From: Quercus robur
Taxonomy: Eukaryota; Streptophyta; Magnoliopsida; Fagales; Fagaceae
Assembly (NCBI RefSeq): GCF_932294415.1
Contig: NC_065536.1
Span: 4,970,974-5,034,973 of the forward strand
Length of the DNA: 64,000 bases
Direction: 5' to 3'
The translations under genes and the position numbers were made by a program. Under the pieces are notes generated by a model, which was given only the letters and a program-made list of their open reading frames with translations, was not told the origin of the DNA and did not search any database. How positions within the stretch are numbered: position 1 is the stretch's first letter; the number at the start of each line of letters is the position of its first letter. Shown here in pieces: positions 37,104 to 55,860 of this stretch.

Positions 37104-38193
37104 TCACAAGTAAAGCAACTTCATCAGAGCCTGACATGAATTAATATGCCAACCATCAATATAAATTCAATACCATATATATATAGGATTGCTTGGGTTA
37201 AATAATACTTAACTTGTGCAAGGTCAGAAACAGAAAATTAGAAGGAAAAAGAATCATATAGGTAAAAAAAAGTGACAATCACTTCCTTCCCATTGCATTC
37301 TCACATGCATGGAGTAGTCGATTCTTATGGTTGGTGGGGCTGCTTATCAGATAATACTTTTAGATCAAAGAATCACAACAAGCTGGCCAAGGCTTTAGCA
37401 AATTTCACTGAGGTTTACCTCTTTTCTATTCTTTTAATTCACTTTATTTTGACCAGCTTCCAAATTTTCCAAATAGGTGGATTGTGGCAGAGTTAAAAAT
37501 AATTAATTAAATTCAAGTTTCAAAGAGAAAATCTTGGATAATAACCGAACTTTGCACTGTCAATTATTTAGCTCCCTGCCCAAAACCTGAATTTGACCAA
37601 ATGGTTGTGAACTTACCTTAAATTTCTAGTAACATTGAGCAAGCCATGCCAAGTTTGCAAAATGGACAGCCCCATTTAACACCAAAGTACAAAATGAGAT
37701 CAACAAAGGTTCTCAAGTTTCAAGTATAGAGAAGTCATACCTGGGAAGCCATAATCCATTTTCCATCAATCCAGTCCTGATGTGGCCTTAAGTCAGAATG
37801 CTTAAACTCTATTTCCTCATCCGTGTCCCTAAAGTAAACTAAGTATTTTGAGCCACCAAGAACCTTAGAAATCACACCCACCCACCACCCATCATTGTAC
37901 AAAGCATCAACTTCTTCAAAAAGACTAAAACGATCAACAACAAGAGTTTCTGGTGGACATGGCCTAATATGCAGGGTATCAAACTCTTCTCTCAGAAAGC
38001 CTGAATCATCATCAGTCCTCAGGCTCTGGTACTGGACAAGGAACTTGTCCTTTCCCACTGCTTTAACGACAGTTGCAGCAAACCAGGCACCTTCAAAACC
38101 ATCATCATCACTGCTAACCTCAACTAGTGTCCCCTTGCTGAACATTTTTTGTGCTGTTGCGTCATTAGCCTTCACCTCCTTTGCGATTGACAT
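37104..38193 (-). CDS. Short tandem-Agenet (Tudor-like) protein, ADCP1/AGDP1 type
   Basis: The main exon runs from ATG 38193 to 37741 (151 residues) and ends at a GTATGA donor. A plausible last exon at 37130-37104, after CATGTCAG, adds ALMKLLYL and a stop, giving 159 residues; this exon is tentative. Reading through the donor would stop two codons later. One Agenet pair is visible: about residues 18-80 (FSKGTLVEVSSDDDGFEGAW, VQYQSL, LHIRPCPP) and 86-146 (EEVDALYNDGWWVGVISKV, YLVYFRDTDEEIEF). A CAG acceptor at 38197-38199 lies three bases before the ATG, so a 5' UTR intron is likely. Agenet pairs bind methylated histone tails; ADCP1 (At1g09320) reads H3K9me2 with three pairs (family knowledge). 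Only one pair exists here, with no further Agenet sequence within several kb, so it is a reduced gene or a distinct short form. Confidence 0.8.
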
Positions 38194-38299
38194 GTTCTGC
38201 AATTCAATTTTTTAAAGCTGACAATGTGAACTACATTAAAAACCTGAGCCAAAGATGACCTCTACAGGGAATGCATAAAACAAAGTAGAATATGCTAAT

Positions 38300-39060: not shown

Positions 39061-40082
39061 TGGCCTGTTTGGAAGTTTAGAGAGGGAGGAGAGTAGAGGG
39101 GAGTAAAGGGGAGAAGAGTAGAGGGGGAATGTTCCCCTCCACCTTGTTTGGATGTTTTAATTGACATGACTTTTTTATTTTTTGTTTTTATATATTACAC
39201 ATATAAGAACTACATTTATTGGGAAAAACCATCAGAGTCAACTCCCGAATGAGTTTATTGTTCTCAAGCACTAAAGTATGTCTAAACAATCAAGAAGTTT
39301 CTCCTCTAAAACATTCTTTTGACCAATGTAAACATGCTGAGGTTTAGAAACTCTACCAATCTTTTGGAAAAGAGAAGAACCCTTAAGAGTGACACAGTAA
39401 TATGTAAATTACCAAATAAAAAGATTGATTTTTTTGATCTTAGAATCATTAGGCAAAGAGTGTCGAGTTAACTCATAACAGAAACCAACTAAATCTTCCT
39501 AGAACCATTTAAAACCAAACCAAACAAAAACACCACCACCATTTCAAATAATAATAATAATAAAAAACCATTATTTCCACAAAAATTAAAATTAAAAATC
39601 CCAGAACCATATCCATCAAAACTAAACCAAAACACAAGACACCAAACTGAACCCATCATCGAAAACTTATCAAAAAACACAAACCGAAACCTTAAACCCC
39701 AACTGAACCTTCCCACAACCATTTCCAGCCAAACCAAACAAAACCACAACCACTATCCAAAAGAAAAATCAATTTAACCCAAAAAACAAAAAACGAAAAA
39801 GAAGAAGAAAAGAAAAGAAAGTCCCACCTCTTTTTCTTGCTCCTCAAATGGCGGAACCCCTCATGAAATCATTCCCTATGCATCCTCAGGTCCTCCTTCG
39901 CAAACCCACTCTTCTCCTTAGAGTCTCTGAAAAAAACCCCGAACCCCAGATCACTGTTTGGGGTTCTGACAGAGAGGTACAGAGAGTGAGAGAGGTACAG
40001 TGGTACTTTATGATTGAAAAGAAATGGATGGTGACTAGATTTAAATTTTTAATGACATTAAAAATTTGAATTTGGGTTGGGC
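39061..40082. other. Spacer between the RTE tail and the palindrome
   Basis: It contains a purine-rich G/A tract (39075-39140), an A/C-rich stretch (39490-39800) and a GA-rich stretch before 39848. An ATG at 39848 in good context opens a 73-codon frame, but nothing in it is recognised. Confidence 0.45.
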
Positions 40083-41166
40083 CTCTAGAATTGAGTCTTT
40101 TGGGTTAAAATTGCAAATTTTAAAGTTAATTTGCGTTATAGCTACTGTTCGAAGTTAATTGGGAATCTGAGGAGAGAGACTGAATTTCGGCAATGGCGTT
40201 GCCGAAATTCAGCCAAAAAAGATGGAGAGAGAATAAGGCTACCGAAATTCAACCAGAAAGCAGGAGAGAGGAGAGAGAATAACAAAAAAAGTAGGAGAGA
40301 GAATAACCAAAAAACAGGAGAGAGGAGAGAGAATAACCAAAAAATTTTTTTTTTTCCCCCACAATTTCGGTAATGGCATTGCCGAAATTGTGGGGGAAAA
40401 ATTTTTTTAGGAAAAAAAATTTTTTTTTCCCCACAATTTCGGTAATGAAATTGTGGGGGAAAAATTTTTTTAGGAAAAAAATTTTTTTTTTTCCCCACAA
40501 TTTGCCATTGCCGAAATTGTGGGGGAAAAATTTTTTTAGGAAAAAAAATTTTTTTTTTCCCCACAATTTCGGTAATGCCATTGCCGAAATTGTTGGGGAA
40601 ATTTTTTTTTATTTCCCCACAATTTCGGTAATGCCATTGCCGAAATTGTGGGGAAAAAAAAAATTTTTTTCCTAAAAAAATTTTTCCCCCACAATTTCGG
40701 CAATGGCAAATTGTGGGGAAAAAAAAAAAATTTTTTCCTAAAAAAATTTTTCCCCCACAATTTCATTACCGAAATTGTGGGGGAAAAAAAAATTTTTTTC
40801 CTAAAAAAATTTTTCCCCCACAATTTCGGCAATGGCAAATTGTGGGGAAAAAAAAAATTTTTTTCCTAAAAAAATTTTTCCCCCACAATTTCGGCAATGC
40901 CATTACCGAAATTGTGGGGAAAAAAAAAAATTTTTTGGTTATTCTCTCTCCTCTCTCCTACTTTTTTGTTATTCTCTCTCCTCTCTCCTGCTTTCTGGTT
41001 GAATTTCGGTAGCCTTATTCTCTCTCCATCTTTTTTGGCTGAATTTCGGCAACGCCATTGCCGAAATTCAGTCTCTCTCCTCAGATTCCCAATTAACTTC
41101 GAACAGTAACTATAACGCAAATTAACTTTAAAATTTGCAATTTTAACCCAAAAGACTCTCTAGAAT
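40083..41166. repeat. 1.1-kb nested palindrome (foldback element)
   Basis: The outer arms are almost identical inverted copies: agtcttttgggttaaaattg at 40095 onward is mirrored up to 41156, with one substitution in the first 250 bases and one indel of about 30 bp in the GAGAGA block. Inside lie nine short palindromes of the type ccccacaatttcgg...ccgaaattgtgggg, at about 40360, 40431, 40495, 40559, 40615, 40686, 40752, 40814 and 40880, separated by A- and T-runs with a period of 55-72 bp. The centre is near 40620. Several frames stay open across it, but they only repeat translations of the same motif and are not genes. A foldback or MULE-like transposon is the likeliest origin. No target duplication was identified. 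Confidence 0.85.
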
Positions 41167-43019
41167 TCCCACGTATAAGCTAAAAAGCGTAAAATTTTAG
41201 GTGATTTTTTTTTCATTATTAAAATTAAAGCTAAGATTTTTTACCGTTCATAATTTGATACTGTTGAGTGACAAAAAACATTTACATCAGCCTGAAATTT
41301 TAGTAAAAATGCATAACATTCTCTATTCTTTCTTTGTTTTTATTTAAATATACTTATCTATTTATTATTAGTTTTTTACACAAAAATTTCTCCATCTTTT
41401 TCTCTTTTTCAGTTATACTCTCAACATCATTTGGAGAGGCACAACCTCCTCATATGTGTTCTTTTTATTATAAAAAATCAGGTCGTTTAGGATCTTCTCC
41501 ATCCAAAGGTGTGTCAATAAGAATGTAAGTTCTTGCATTTTAGAAGAATTTGATTGACATTTGGCAATAAAAACGAGATCATTTAAGTTATGGTCTCGGT
41601 TTTTGGGGTTTTTAGGATTCTGTTAAGGGGTTTGAGATATTGAAGTGAAGTTCGAAAGGGGTTGTTAGGGTTTTAGATGAGAACAATTGGGTGAATGAGA
41701 GGAAATTGATAGGGTAGCTTAGAGTTGAGAGGTTTTTAAACCAAATGTCAAAGTGGTTTTAAAAGGTTGATTAAATCAAGATTAAAAGGGGTTGTTTGGG
41801 GGGGGGGGGGAGGTGTTTTAAGGGAGAAAATAATTGAGTGAATGAGATGGAACAAGACTCTCTCCCTTCCATGATTAAATTACACTTTAACCAATAATAA
41901 AAAAAAAAAACAATTAAGATTTACTATTGCTTACAAAACTTTTAGCTAGCTCAAGCCCTGCTTGCTATGGGTTAGTGATGATAAAAATACCTTGTTCCAC
42001 CCCAAAGAGGTGAGGGAAAGCGGACTTGTTTTGGTCACTCTATTCCACCACAAATGTATATATGCATATTTTGTTTAATATATATCTAAATTATGAATGC
42101 AAGTAATTTGAATCTTTAATATGTATATCTTAATTGTAATTTATCTTTTTATACATGTACTATTACTAATGCTAATAGATTTGTCTCTCGTTTTCTTTTA
42201 AGACTCTCTAGCCGCATTTATCTTTTTGTTTCAGTGTTTTAATTCAATTTAAATTACTTATTTAATATTTTTATTATTATAATTTCAAGAATTTTATGCA
42301 AAATTTATGCTAAAAAACAAAAACCTCAATCCTTTGAGTTTAAAAAGATTGTCTCATTTGTTTGTTTGTTTGTTTGTTTTTTTTTTTTTTTTTTGATGGT
42401 GATTGTCTCATTTGTTTGTTTGTTTTTTTTAAACAACAAAAAAACTATCTCATGTGTGCAATTTCCTGAAAGGCAATAGAGAAAAGTGCAACTGACAGAA
42501 GTGATCTTGTAATTTGTTTTTATGGTGAAACTATAAGTAATAAATTAAGGTTATTTTCTATTTCTATCCTTACACTGTGAAGATAAATAACTTTATTAAT
42601 TTATTTAACACAATAAAGCTTCAAAGCTTCTAAAAAAAAAAAAAAAGCTTCAAAGCTATTATCATCACAATCTCTACACCACAAATCGAGAAACAACTAA
42701 CAATCCTTCATACTCCAGTCTCTTATAAGTCCTTCATTTACGTTTCTCATTCTCCTTATAATTATTTAGCCACAAAATAAAAATCCCAAATACAAACTCT
42801 TTTACTCAAGCCATTTGACCCATAACTTGTCTATACCACTGCAAAAGTGTTTTATGCAACTTTATTAATGATAAAAGATAGACAATTTTATTAATGATAA
42901 AGAGTATGTACAAGACAAATTCAAACAAGTGTAAGCATCTACACAGAATATAAATCATCAACTAGTTAAAACATATAAAATATGGATTGATTCTTTTGAC
43001 TTCCAACGACAATTAGCTC
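41167..43019. other. AT-rich spacer
   Basis: No gene supported. It contains a G-run at about 41799-41811 and a doubled gtctcatttgtttgtttgtt tract with a T-run at 42351-42430. Confidence 0.45.
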
Positions 43020-47357: not shown

Positions 47358-50300
47358 CTAAGGAGCAAAACCAGGAACTACACAATGTCTGCTACTATAC
47401 AGACCACGGCTATCAGCCTCTAGAATAGGAATAAGGTCCACAGGCGGACCATTCCATAAAACAAAATTTGAATCTAAGTTTAGTCCGAAACTAGCAAGCC
47501 AGTCAGCACTTTTGTTTGCTTCCCTGTAGACATGAGATATAGAAGCTTGAGGGATTTGGTTCATCAAGAGCTTACAGTCATCCAATATTGAAGACACAAT
47601 AGTGTTAGCTGCAGACTGATGAGAAAATGCATCCACTATGGCACTTGCATCTAGCTCAATAGCCACGGCTTGGACATTCAACTGCCGACATAAGAGAAGG
47701 CCATCCCGCAACGCCCATAACTCAGCAGTGAAGCTGTTTGCTATGCCAATCCTTCTAGAAAACCCCCTAATCCAGCTACCATACTCATCTCGCAGAACAC
47801 CTCCACCACCAGCTAAGCCCGGATTCCCCAAAACTGACCCATTAGTGTTTAATTTCAACCAGCCACTACAAGGTTTTTCCCAGCGCACCTGATTCAAGAT
47901 TTTCCGTTTTGTCACCAGCAGCTTGCCCGCACAGTGAAAGTATTCTAATGCTTGGTAAAAGATGTCTTTGGCAATACTAGACTTTATATTCTTGTTCTCA
48001 AAAACCAGCTGGTTCCTACCCTTCCAAATAGTCCAAATAGCAAACATAAAAATCTAGTTCCAAGGAGCTTGACCTGAACTTCGAACTCCTTTATCCTTAC
48101 AATTAGACATGAGCCAATCTTGCATGTTAGCCGAGAAGAACCTTGTGTCCAAGCAGCTGATTCCTAACTGATGCCAAATAGTCTTGAGGACATGGCAGTC
48201 CCGAAGGGCATGAATGATGGATTCTGGCCTATTATGGCAGTGGGGACAAATATTATCAACTTGCAGCCCCCTGGCTTGTAAACAATCTCTTACCCCTATA
48301 TTGTGGTGCATGCACTTCCAAATGAAAGTTTTAATTCTCGGCAAGGTATCTAACTTCCAAATCCACTTCCCTTGGAAGGCCGGTTCAGGGAGAGGTTCAC
48401 TAGCAAGGAGATAAGCACTACTAAGATCAAAAGAACCTTTGGGAGAAGGTTTCCAAGCTAATTTGTCCTGATTTCTTGCAACACACGAGAAAGGGGTAGC
48501 TTGAATTACTCTTTTAACATCATCAGGAATCTCTATTTGCAGCAAATTCCAATTCCATCCTTCCAAGCTAGCAACATCCTTCACTTCTAACAAATTAGAC
48601 TCGGTGGTTAGGGGGCCTTGGATGATATTTCTTAAGATGCCGGCCTTAGACCAATTGTCATGCCAGAAGCTGAGGTTGCTGTTATACCCCGGAACCCAAG
48701 TAATTCCTTTCTTGAAAACAGGTTACCCTTTCTTCATACTCCTCCAAGTTCGAGAGCAAGGCAGCCTAGCTTCATCTCTGGAATTTAAACGCCGATTAGT
48801 ACAATATTTCATCCTCAACACTTTGGCCCATTGAGAATCTTTCTCCGTATGAAACCTCCAATTTAATTTAGCAAGAAGAGCCGTGTTCCTTCCTTTTGCA
48901 GCTTGGATACTCAACCCACCTACATCCTTAGGGGTAGTGACCTTTTTCCATCCCACCCAGTGCATACTCTTCTTATTGGTTGAGGAGTTCCACAAGAAGT
49001 TTCGGTTTACTTGGTCTATGCCTTCTAAAATCTTCCCTGGGAGCTGGTTGCATTGCATAACATAAGCTGGGATGGTAGAAGTGGCTGCTTGGATCAGAAC
49101 TGACCTCCCGGCCATGGAGAGGAGATTTCCTTTCCATCCTGCAAGTTTCTTTTTCACCCTTTCCAACACAAAGTTAAAATCCTGACTTGATGCACCATTA
49201 TGCTTAATGGGAAAGCCGAGGTATTTCCCTAGATTAGGGGTAGACTGAAAACCGAGGATGTCACTCAAGGCTTCTCTATCACTACGGTCCACATTGGGAG
49301 CAAAGAAAACCCTGGATTTAGCTTCACTTATGGTTTGACCGGATTGGCTACAAAAGTCATCCAACACTTCTCTAATTACAAGACAATTTTCCATATTTGC
49401 CTTGGCAAAGAGGACAAGATCGTCTGCAAAAAATAGATGCGAGAAAGTTGGCCCTCTTCGGGAAGCTTTAATAGGAATCCAAGACTTGTCATCACACCTT
49501 TCCTGGATTAGTTGCCCCAAATAGTCCATACACATGATGAAGATATACGGAGATAGCGGATCGCCTTGCCTAATCCCTCTAGTAGGATGAAAAGGCTTAG
49601 AGCACCTCCATTAAAGAGTAAAGAGGTGGAGACCGAAGTGATGCAGCTCATAATAAGATCAATTAAATTCCTTGGAAGATTAAACCGGATCAACATATCC
49701 CTAATGAAACTCCACTCCAATTTATCATAGGCTTTTTCTAAATCAATTTTCAAAGCCATATAACCTCCTTTGCCCTTAGCTTTACCCATAGTGTGGATCA
49801 ATTCTTGAACAATAATAGCATTATCCACTCCTCTTCTTCCCGGAACAAAAGCCGACTGACAAGGACCTATTAATTTATCCAAATAAGGTCTCAACCTCCC
49901 CACTATGATTTTAGTAATGATTTTGTAAACCGAATTGCATAAGCTAATAGGTCTATAGTTACTAATGGATTCCGGGCTTTGGATCTGAGGAATAAGGACA
50001 ATACTTGTGTTATTTAAATAGTCTGGAATTTTTCTGCATAGGAAAGCCTTCCTAATCTCCTCTTTAACAGAATCCCCCACTGTGGACCAGAATCTCTGGA
50101 AAAATCCAGCATGCAGTCCATCAGGACCTGGAGACTTAAAAGCCTTAAGAGACCACAAGGCAGTGACTATTTCAGCATCTATCACCGGCTGGTCTAAACT
50201 GTGCTTCTCCTCCTCCGTGAGACTACTTTGCCACCCCTGCCGGAGGTTATGATTCCAACCAGCCTTGTCTTGGCTGGTAGTATACAGCCTTATAAACCCC

Positions 50301-51487
50301 TCTCTAAAATGGTTCATAACTTCTCTTTCCTTCGTTAGCCAGTCCCCTACCTCGTTTTTAACCATGCAAATAGTGTTCCTTTTCCTCCTAGCAAGGGCAG
50401 AAACATGATAGAAAGAGGTGTTACGATCACCCAACACCATCCAATTAATTCTAGACTTTAAGGCCCACAACTCCACCTCTTGATTCAGCACTACATCCAG
50501 ATCTCTAAGAAGCTGGTTTTCCAAATCTATAAGGGAAGATTGGGGGTTGGAAGCTAAAACCCGCTGGATTCCATTAAGCCTTGCCATTAATCTTCTTTTC
50601 TTCTCAAATATATTTCCAAACTGATTTTTATTCCATATCATAGCATCAGTTGTGAATCTATCAATAGAAGTTGCAAGATTATCATCCTGATTCCAAGCCT
50701 TAGTCACCACTTGAGGAAAAGAAGGGTCGGACAACCAGAAGCTTTGGAATCTAAAAGGCCTATTGCGAAAATTGGTCTGTCTAGGGACAGTTTCAAGGAG
50801 TACGGGACAATGGTCGGAATGACAACGAGTAAGGTGGGAGACCCTAGCTTCAGGATACAAGAGGCACCAACTAGGATTCATAAAAAACCTATCTATTCTC
50901 TCTTGAATGAGGTTATTTAAATCCCTTCTATTACTCCACGTGTATCTGGGACCCGAGAATCCCAAATCCACCATATTGCACTTATCAAGACAATCTTTGA
51001 ATAACAGTGATCTATGAATGCTAACAAGCCTTCCTCCAAACTTATCTTCATCCAACAGGGGTTCATTAAAATCCCCAGCTATTACCCATAGCTTATTATG
51101 AAGATCGGCTACTTTAATTAAATTTTCCCACAAAGTATTTCTCTCAGCAATCCTAGGACTAGCATAAACAGCAGAAAAAATCCAAGAGAGTTTAGTAGCA
51201 AGTACCTTCACTTCCACATGGATTTCTTGCTCTGTATCTGCCAAATGAATCACCTCCACAATATCAGCATTCCAGAGCAGCCAAAGGCCTCCTGCGTACC
51301 CAATTGTTTCGGTATGGATGGCGCCATCAAAAGGAAGTCTATTTGATATTTCCTTTGCACGAGCTCCACCAAGCTTGGTCTCCATAATCACTAACAAAGC
51401 CGGATTATGATTTCGAGCTAGCTCTCTTACATGATGCTGAAATTTGGGCTTCAGCACGCCCCGGCTATTCCAAATTATTATATTCAT
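47358..51487 (-). pseudogene. LINE ORF2: endonuclease, reverse transcriptase, RNase H (three lesions)
   Basis: It starts at ATG 51487 (MNIIIWNSRGVLKPKFQHHV). The AP-endonuclease domain keeps METKL, GDFNEPL and the HSDHCPVLL catalytic block. Reverse transcriptase follows with SFKSPGPDG-like KAFKSPGPDGLHAGFFQ, NYRPISLCNSVYKIITK, KIDLEKAYDKLEW and the FADDLVLFAK active site. After that come zf-RVT (CPHCHNRPESIIHALRDC) and RNase H (AELWALRDGL, IELDASAIVDAF, REANKSADWLA). Lesions: a frameshift near 49597, a TAA at 48723-48725 and a TAG at 48054-48056. In RNase H the usual catalytic Asp is Asn (KLNTNGS). About 1,375 codons in total, the usual size. This copy should not make a full ORF2 product. Confidence 0.9.
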
Positions 51488-51518
51488 AAAAACAGAGAGG
51501 AAAGAAAATAAAACCAAC

Positions 51519-53369
51519 TCAAGAGGAAAAGCCGGAGCCTCCTTCATCCTCAAACTCCATCCTATCTTCTCCCTTCTTTTCGCCATCCTCCCTTCTACAA
51601 GGATCGTCCGGACCACCCATACAAGCTTCTTCATCCTTCTCTTCAATGATTCCATCTAAAGAGCAATTGGTTTCCAATCCTCCTCCAGATTTTGAAATAA
51701 CCACCCCAACACAGTTGTCGGCCACCTCAAGGATTCTGTTACCGTCCACCGACGGGCTTGGATGATTGATCTTTCCTTGATTTTGAATGCCCAGCTCACC
51801 TTGATGATTCCTCACCACCTCGTCTTTGCAAAGTATACCCGGATCGGTGTGCGCTGCTGCTGAAAATTGGAACAACGAGCTTGCATCTCCTCCATTGTTG
51901 CCGAGAAGAGTCACTACTTGTGTTTCTGCGAGAGGCGTCCTGCTGCTACTAGCAGCTTCTGTATTCAAATGGACTGAAGCCCTACTTCTGGCCAAGGCTT
52001 TTTTTGCCTTCACTGAATGGTTATCTTGGGCTTTAGGAGGAAGCCCAGCCTTGTTAGTTCCACCCCCAAACTTCAGATTCGGGCCCAATGACAATAAGTC
52101 CTGCCCAACCATGTCCAACGTAGATTTGTAAGCAAAGCCCACCTCAGGATTCTCCTTCCATACGTTATTCCCGTTGCTGGCCTTATTCCTTGCCAAGGAA
52201 TCTTTCTGTTTTGCGCTCTGTCTTGATTTCGTGGGGTCCGGCTGTACCATCCCCTTTGTGGTCCCATTTGGTCTTGCTCTCCTACGTGTAACCAGCATCC
52301 ACGATCCAAACTTGTCCTCATCTTGCGCCGTTCCACTACTCTCAGCCACGTCACTGCCAGCCCCGTGCCAGCCAGTATCATGCATTCTTCGTGGGCTAGT
52401 ACTTTGTGCTTTAGTACCAGCCAACTCCTTCTCCGGCGACACATCTTTCTCCGGTGATGGCTCAGTACACCGAACTGAATATGGACACGCCTCCTTTTTG
52501 TGTCCAATCCTGCCGCATACGAAACAGAGCTTGTTGATGCCCTCGTACACCACTGTTTGCTCAAATTTCCCAATGAGCACAGTATTGATTAGCGGTTTAT
52601 TCGCATCTACCTGAATGCATAACCTCGCATACTTACCCCGAGCTTCCATGGCGGTATGAGTATCAACTCTCAAAACTTTCCCAATGGCTTCCCCGATCTG
52701 TTTAAGAACTTCTGCCTCATAAAGTTCAATAGGCAAACGATGTAATCTAACCCAAACAGCTATTGATGACACGTTAGCTGCATCCGGATTGAAAAATGGT
52801 TCCCATGGCCTAATAGATAAATAATGCTCTCCTATGAACCATGGCCCTTTCCTCAAAACTGCATCCAAGTCTTCCTTCATTGAGAACCTCGTTAAGAAAA
52901 ACTCATTTCCAAGGTCCACACAGTCTAGTCTCCCATTGGGTTTCCACAGTTGCTGGAGTTTGTTTTGGATGTAGGTAAAACCTATTTTCCTTCCATAAAG
53001 CTTGACAATCAGAGCTTTCGACCACGACCCCCTTATACGTAGTTTAGTTTCCTTAGATAGCTTTATTGCCGCTAAACCTTCGCGTAAACCAGAAACTTCT
53101 TCATCGGAGTCAACATCATCCTCCATTTGATCGTAAAAATCGAAGGCTTGAGCATAGGCTCCTGGTATTTCTCCTACCAATTTTTCCTTGAAAGACTTGT
53201 TGGGTGAAGCCCAAGCATTGTTATTCTGTGGGTAAGATCCATTCTCGTTGGCCCCTTCTCTGAAATCAGCATGATTGACATCCTTTACCTTCTTCTTGCT
53301 TCTCAATAGTTCAACTTCCTCTTCCCTTGAGAGAGCACGGCTTCCTCTTCCCTTTAGAGAGCACGACAT
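51519..53369 (-). CDS. LINE ORF1 protein (DUF4283 plus CCHC zinc knuckle)
   Basis: An uninterrupted frame of 616 residues starting MSCSLKGRGSRALSREEEVE, 42 bases inside the element's 5' end. Residues about 106-265 form a DUF4283-type nucleic-acid-binding domain (RGSWSKALIVKLYGRKIGF, FFLTRFSMKEDLDAVLRKGP, VWVRLHRLPIELYEAEVL). A CX2CX4HX4C zinc knuckle (CFVCGRIGHKKEAC) lies at 282-295. The C-terminal 300 residues are low-complexity and polar. ORF1 proteins bind element RNA in the ribonucleoprotein needed for retrotransposition (family knowledge). The intact frame contrasts with the damaged ORF2. It is a transposon gene, not a host gene. Confidence 0.9.
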   Translation of the reverse strand: MSCSLKGRGSRALSREEEVELLRSKKKVKDVNHADFREGANENGSYPQNNNAWASPNKSFKEKLVGEIPGAYAQAFDFYDQMEDDVDSDEEVSGLREGLAAIKLSKETKLRIRGSWSKALIVKLYGRKIGFTYIQNKLQQLWKPNGRLDCVDLGNEFFLTRFSMKEDLDAVLRKGPWFIGEHYLSIRPWEPFFNPDAANVSSIAVWVRLHRLPIELYEAEVLKQIGEAIGKVLRVDTHTAMEARGKYARLCIQVDANKPLINTVLIGKFEQTVVYEGINKLCFVCGRIGHKKEACPYSVRCTEPSPEKDVSPEKELAGTKAQSTSPRRMHDTGWHGAGSDVAESSGTAQDEDKFGSWMLVTRRRARPNGTTKGMVQPDPTKSRQSAKQKDSLARNKASNGNNVWKENPEVGFAYKSTLDMVGQDLLSLGPNLKFGGGTNKAGLPPKAQDNHSVKAKKALARSRASVHLNTEAASSSRTPLAETQVVTLLGNNGGDASSLFQFSAAAHTDPGILCKDEVVRNHQGELGIQNQGKINHPSPSVDGNRILEVADNCVGVVISKSGGGLETNCSLDGIIEEKDEEACMGGPDDPCRREDGEKKGEDRMEFEDEGGSGFSS

Positions 53370-54971: not shown

Positions 54972-55257
54972 GTATGAGCTTTTTGTAATAGCATTTCCAA
55001 TTCTCAATAAATATTTATTTGAGGGAAAATAAAAGGAAAGAGATAGGGGAGCCCTCTATTTTTTCACTGATATACAATAGAACCCTTTATTGGATTTAAA
55101 TAGTATACTTTAAGCTTCAAAAAAAATAGTATACTTTAACTAAGGGATCAGACCAGGGCATGGTCCCTATTAATTAAGGGTTAATATTCAAATTAATCTC
55201 TTTACTATTATTTCAATTGTCATAATAGTTTTTAAAGTTTTTTTTTTTTTTTTTTTT

Positions 55258-55860
55258 TTTTTTTTCCAATTTTGTTGCTCGCTCATTAGATTTGGTCATT
55301 TCATCCAAACTAGTTAACAAATGAGGTATTTGTTTGGATACGGATGAAAACTCATGCATCTGCGTTTTCTTTTTTTCTTTTTATTTTATTTTATTGAGAC
55401 TCGTGTTTCACGTGGGACACGGTATTGTTAGTGGATCCCGTGCACATTTTTTTTTTTTTTTCCAATTTTGTTGCTCGCTCATTAGATTTGGTCATTTCAT
55501 CCAAACTAGTTAACAAATGAAGTATTCGTTTGGATACGGATGAAAACTCATGCATCTGCGTTTTCTTTTTATTTTATTTTATTTTATTTGAGACTCGTAT
55601 TTCACGTGGGACACGGTATTGTTAGTGGGTCCCGTGCACTGTGCACGGGACCCACTACCTCTTTGACCAGCAAATATTTCACAAGAATGTATCACACTAG
55701 TGGGTCTCGTGCATTGTTTACGGGACCACAAACTTCTTTTTTCAGCAATTTTTTTATTAAAAATGGGTTCCACAACACTATTTACATATTTAAAAATTAT
55801 TTTGTTACAGTATTTTTAGTTTTTAGTTTTCAGTAAAATAAGTGGTATCTGAACGGACCA
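55258..55860 (+). mobile_element. GTTTGGAT-family MITE with a 196-bp partial tandem duplication
   Basis: The full copy is 55525-55860: cgtttggatacggatg at the left, ggtatctgaacggacc at the right, and between them acatatttaaaaattatttt and tttttagttttcagtaaaat. The block starting ccaattttgttgctcgctca at 55266 is repeated from 55462, exactly 196 bases on, and includes a truncated first copy of the MITE's left half. Both junctions lie in poly(T) runs, which suggests slippage or unequal exchange. Confidence 0.7.
55624..55656. repeat. 33-bp perfect palindrome
   Basis: The arms AGTGGGTCCCGTGCAC and GTGCACGGGACCCACT pair perfectly around a single T at 55640. It lies inside the MITE; a weaker second copy (gtgggtctcgtgcattgttt) follows at about 55700. 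Confidence 0.85.

Follow-up and report, generated by a model that had tools for sequence, protein, structure and literature searches.

A 1.1-kb palindrome built of hairpins in Quercus robur is very probably a non-autonomous foldback Mutator-like element

In the stretch of Quercus robur DNA analyzed here, a window of 64,000 nucleotides on contig NC_065536.1, a large palindrome occupies positions 40093-41158. Our analyses indicate, with high confidence, that it is a non-autonomous foldback Mutator-like element (MULE) of 1,066 bp. This assignment rests on a target-site duplication, on a terminus and hairpins that the element has in common with transposase-coding relatives, and on the existence of intermediate copies. 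The foldback MULE is a known kind of transposon, and the sequence-only reading, an earlier annotation made from the letters of this DNA, had described the same structure as a palindrome of palindromes, with an internal layout for which it knew no named family.

The element is bounded on both sides by an exact 9-bp direct repeat, TCTAGAATT, found at 40084-40092 and, identically, at 41159-41167 (both on the plus strand), as expected for a target duplication at this copy. The left outer arm spans 40093-40340 on the plus strand and the right outer arm 40936-41158 on the minus strand. Both begin with the same terminal tip, GAGTCTTTTGGGTTAAAATTGC (40093-40114, plus strand, on the left), which has matches throughout the genome. 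Each arm carries a hairpin, h, with the sequence CTGAATTTCGGCAATGGCGTTGCCGAAATTCAG, which starts 87 nt from the tip and lies at 40180-40212 (plus strand) in the left arm and at 41039-41071 (minus strand) in the right. The left outer arm further contains purine-rich GAGAGAGAATAAC repeats (40251-40344, plus strand). The 1.1-kb inverted repeat and the near-identical long arms reported previously are both present, and the arms proved to be 99% complementary across 197 nt (40093-40289 versus 40962-41158). The mirror is imperfect: compared end to end, the two halves share 87% identity, order their units differently and are set apart by one core unit and a 24-nt stretch of outer arm. The plus strand is predicted to fold into one long hairpin at -827.3 kcal/mol, a value that describes only the capacity of the strand to fold.

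The core of the element consists of nine hairpin units with a common stem, AATTTCGG...CCGAAATT. Four are full palindromes (F): U1 (40356-40396, plus strand), U4 (40559-40598, plus strand), which has a GTTGGGG variant, U5 (40615-40653, plus strand) and U9 (40880-40919, minus strand). In the other five, 7-9 nt are missing to one side of the centre; these fall into two alternating kinds, namely a (U2, 40429-40459, plus strand; U7, inverted, 40752-40783, minus strand) and b (U3, 40493-40525, plus strand; U6 and U8, both inverted, 40686-40718 and 40815-40847, minus strand). The core of U2 is the reverse complement of that of U7, and the core of U3 is the reverse complement of those of U6 and U8. 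Read from the outside in, the left half runs F-a-b-F and the right half F-b-a-b-F. The earlier description of one palindrome motif repeated nine times is therefore right in its count but not in implying identical units, given the four full and five centre-deleted forms; CCCCACAATTTC is present exactly in eight of the nine. All nine core units and both arm hairpins were picked up by a hairpin counter, which gives a total of 11 for the element; 50 first-order Markov simulations of the element averaged 0.04.

The genome, searched as 786 Mb in 42 contigs, contains many related copies. A DNA search in which 40 of 416 candidates were scored returned at least 258 matches. The terminus, allowing up to three mismatches, occurs 198 times in forward and 191 times in reverse orientation, compared with 1 and 3 occurrences of a reversed control. 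Our set of 29 elements comprises the window copy and 28 elements read from places matched by the DNA search; an insert nested in L018 and an outer element around L025 are left out of it. The 9-bp duplication anticipated at other copies was recovered in 17 of the 29 as an exact repeat, and a further 10 have an exact repeat of 10 bp, giving 27 of 29 together. The two elements without an exact duplication are L019, with 4 bp only, and L035, with 9 of 10 matching positions. Duplications of 10 bp are found in four of the ten large elements described below and in six of the 19 other elements.

The right arm of L018 (C2:45967012-45969781) contains a younger nested relative of 0.55 kb, at positions 1774-2324 of the locus, with the terminal inverted repeat (TIR) GAGTCTTTTGGCTTAATATTG and the duplication CTTATTCTC. 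Excision of this insert together with one CTTATTCTC yields a clean empty site, which is the arm of the window copy, L010, L011 and L015, barring single-base differences. The family thus inserts into itself. At L025/L026 (C35:34523080-34539326), a 14-kb element lies inside a foldback relative of 1.83 kb, whose duplication is T-rich. At L012 and L037, two family members are separated by just 54 and 29 bp, which points to insertion in clusters. Another type of terminus, GAGTCTTTTGGGTTAATATTGC, occurs on C1, C2, C4 and other contigs, with its own pairs 12-14 kb apart in addition to short pairs.

Ten of the 29 elements are 12.1-14.0 kb long. Their arms align with each other across 1.2-3 kb at 85-94% identity and are built in the same manner as those of the window copy, with 5-14 hairpins per outer 2.5 kb in all 20 arms; the coding stretches contain no hairpin in any of the ten. 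In tblastn searches, transposase and plant-mobile-domain (PMD) queries, both taken from one of the ten (L027/L028), match all ten large elements. Two frames of 911 aa have Pfam matches to MULE (2.5e-16 and 6.4e-17), SWIM and DBD_Tnp_Mut, and the second gene of L028 matches PMD at 7.1e-50. This second gene (L028:915-3353) has a split plant mobile domain and is accompanied by a 332-aa frame without a Pfam match; matches to the second gene are found in all ten large elements. The unbroken 911-aa frame is kept in five of the ten. Genome-wide, at least six full-length, stop-free transposase matches are present among 58 matches, for which 50 of 1,689 candidates were scored. The large relatives are MULEs, and they are perhaps autonomous.

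The window copy can be compared with the features by which MULEs and foldback elements are recognized. A MULE target-site duplication measures 8-11 bp, and that of the window copy is 9 bp. Long terminal inverted repeats are present, 197 nt in the window copy and 1.2-3 kb in the relatives, and a transposase was identified by Pfam and tblastn in relatives with the same ends. As for the foldback character, the minus-strand self-alignment of the window element covers positions 1-1066, and the numbers of internal repeats in the arms vary, as revealed by the differing counts of a and b units among the copies closest to it.

These closest copies can be recognized by the centre-deleted units. With up to one mismatch, unit a has 18 matches in the genome, all of which fall inside eight elements (L009-L012, L014, L015, L018 and the window copy); the idea that unit a is a free satellite was rejected on this distribution. 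L013 contains unit b and lacks unit a. Counting the eight copies with unit a and L013 with unit b, nine copies of the subfamily are known, among which the numbers of a and b units differ; the token strings that record unit order miss some units, such as U4 of the window copy. In L011, L015 and L018, about 0.7 kb in the middle matches a module of the large-element arm at 87-95%, and the window copy, L009 and L010 are without this middle module. No a or b unit (up to one mismatch) was found in the ten large elements, and no direct parent of the window copy was found among them, the outer arm being 3-10% different.

The simplest path through these forms is one in which the coding region would have been lost first and the inner arm module second, leaving little beyond the two arms, and the number of units would have changed last. 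The inner units may be relatives of hairpin h that have multiplied, slippage or unequal exchange adding and removing copies, and they probably multiply a binding site. The window copy itself probably moved in trans: a transposase supplied by an intact relative would recognize the shared terminal ~120 bp, made up of the tip and hairpin h, and thereby mobilize it.

Foldback elements of this general kind have been described before, and the comparisons that follow are limited to the portions of each cited source available to us. The FARE foldback elements of Arabidopsis have long palindromic repeats at both ends. They are now classed with MULEs (PMC4486113), and their likeness to the oak element, in long palindromic ends, foldback structure and MULE class, is one of description only. 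Tm1, a Mutator/Foldback family of root-knot nematodes, resembles the oak family in its duplications of 8-10 bp, mostly 9 bp, in its composite TIRs with internal repeats that vary in number, and in having small copies together with a transposase-coding one; the TIRs of one Tm1 element are 93.15% identical on average (PMC3169594). However, the Tm1 repeats are tandem and 13-15 bp long, whereas the oak units are palindromes of 31-41 nt, and the Tm1 transposase is Phantom-like, while the oak relatives encode DBD_Tnp_Mut, MULE and SWIM domains (PMC3169594). MuTAnT of Medicago truncatula is likewise a foldback MULE with modular TIRs, a 9-nt duplication and one transposase-coding member, although the first MuTAnT element measures 292 bp with 144-bp TIRs, in contrast to the kb-long arms of the large oak members, and was inserted in TA repeats, whereas the oak duplications are varied (PMC4486113).

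Multiplication of terminal sequence is also seen in the tandem-TIR MULEs of plants, for which it was proposed to raise recognition by the transposase; in those elements, duplication involves all or almost all of the TIR (PMC3310237), whereas in oak a short hairpin within the arm is multiplied. PMD genes in MULEs are known, and the VANDAL, MDR and MUDR groups are similar to the oak family in their SWIM-finger transposase, PMD and 9-10 bp duplications, but the TIRs of PMD-carrying groups are given as 14-500 bp, compared with large oak arms that align over 1.2-3 kb (PMC6446971). A counter-silencing role was suggested for transposon PMD proteins (PMC8616336). VANDAL21 is of MULE type and, similar to the oak family, has non-coding repeats that turn over between copies; these repeats are tandem and bound by the anti-silencing protein VANC, whereas the oak units are palindromes (PMC5735166, PMC10398659). 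By analogy, the VANC-bound repeats of VANDAL21 set a precedent for how such an array might work, not for its sequence. As for arms made of hairpin arrays on the kb scale, no description and no named family was found in a literature search that is a weak guide, most subscription papers lying outside it and the sources being available in part. The kind of element is known, and the earlier remark that no named family with this internal layout was known agrees with the literature searched.

The hairpin h provides some indication of what the array may do. All 58 arms of the set align at h, in 13 versions, and 19 of the 20 large-element arms have its start 87 nt in from the tip (the token search missed the right arm of L031). 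Allowing up to two mismatches, the h pattern has 192 and 196 matches on the two strands of the genome, against none on either for the control; the pattern is nearly palindromic, so some sites are counted on both strands. A comparison of the main family with a second one, called family b, gives differences at 4 of 33 positions in h, located at its centre and ends, against 14 of 64 in the stretch before it and 3 of 22 in the tip. Within the main family, the variation per site and arm is 0.012 in h, 0.025 in the preceding stretch and 0.008 in the tip. The hairpin is not invariant in the main family, and single arms break or change its stem pairs. In the left arm of L023, a G to A and a C to T change at paired positions leave the stem complete; these changes are confined to one arm, and chance or the decay of methylated C are possible causes.

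From this pattern we infer that h may be a cis-acting site of which the array is the multiplication. The array would then be a multiplied subterminal hairpin and perhaps a site of protein binding, an idea that derives from the conservation of h between the two families. A more far-reaching version, which is speculative and in our judgment rather improbable, likens the arrays to the VANC-bound repeats of VANDAL21. The arrays would serve as a landing platform for the family's own plant-mobile-domain protein, acting against silencing; coding-free foldback copies, almost pure platform, would be its parasites or hairpin-RNA triggers against it, and the turnover of the arrays would record an arms race.

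A silencing function has also been weighed for the window copy by itself. In maize, Mu killer silences MuDR in trans. A hairpin-RNA locus in oak could work similarly if read-through transcription gave double-stranded RNA and small RNAs that silence the ends of autonomous relatives in trans. We consider this unlikely, and it could hold together with the transposon reading. The long predicted hairpin is consistent with it, and of the 227 24-mers in the first 250 nt of each of the 20 large-element arms, 48-127 are exact in the window copy, which could, if transcribed, direct silencing to the ends of its relatives. Furthermore, siRNAs are associated with long MULE TIRs in the available portion of one study (PMC6446971). 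However, the window copy has no 21- or 24-mer in common with the coding stretches matched in the ten large elements, and the score for silencing would be alike for any foldback copy. A known structured RNA was rejected, with no Rfam match at the gathering score in 39900-41400.

The non-autonomous foldback MULE that we favour appears to be young, and the near-identity of its arms is attributable to recent insertion. Over the outermost 175 nt, its left arm has the same sequence as four arms found in other copies, which supports the recent origin suggested by the sequence-only reading. The same reading had offered ongoing homogenization, and gene conversion or fold-back repair within each copy would indeed maintain the identity of arms. 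In its favour, the mean difference over the 29 elements is 2.6% between the two arms of an element, versus 7.6% between elements, a mean raised by the two family-b elements and reduced to 4.9% without them; the distances and the tree of arms include the left arm of L012 and the right arm of L018 with its nested insert. Subfamily marks are present in both arms, and the two arms of L022, of L043 and, in a tie, of L035 are nearest to each other. Against it, 21 of the 22 variants private to one element lie in a single arm and just one lies in both, indicating that arms drift apart after insertion. In 26 of the 29 elements, an arm of some other element is nearer than the opposite arm of the same element. 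L009 and L010 have, in the corresponding arm, the C/T difference that separates the outer arms of the window copy; this difference has thus not been erased. Ongoing homogenization was rejected as the cause of arm identity on the private variants, and we regard it as improbable, although the subfamily marks in both arms make it likely that arms were equalized now and then when subfamilies were founded.

The element is located 1.9 kb from a frame with an Agenet domain (37735-38202, minus strand, 4.6e-32), on its 5' side, in accordance with the earlier placement upstream of a neighbouring gene, a putative heterochromatin reader. Proximity and orientation would suit a host regulatory element of the Agenet gene that is transposon-like in look only, but the insertion scar in the window and the terminus and units common with elements at other loci make this very improbable. 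Elsewhere in the window, LINE-like retrotransposon frames were noted by eye at 47358-53369 (minus strand), and a 196-bp unit is present in two tandem copies with 95% matches at 55251-55639.

Large palindromes are a classic site of inverted-duplication assembly errors, but an artefact from joined reads of both strands is scarcely credible and was rejected, since the terminus recurs genome-wide far above its control (198 and 191 versus 1 and 3), the halves of the element are unlike in unit order, the target duplication lies outside the palindrome, and independent copies at other loci have different unit strings, each with its own duplication.

To conclude, if neither the multiplication of binding sites nor silencing proves true, the palindrome is an ordinary transposon insertion. 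One oak genome nevertheless displays the whole series, from elements of 12-14 kb, including some unbroken transposase frames, through intermediates to pure foldback copies, all with ends built of hairpins. With this series it becomes possible to test whether protein binding or the instability of palindromes alone accounts for the multiplication of subterminal hairpins, and whether relatives are silenced by natural foldback copies.
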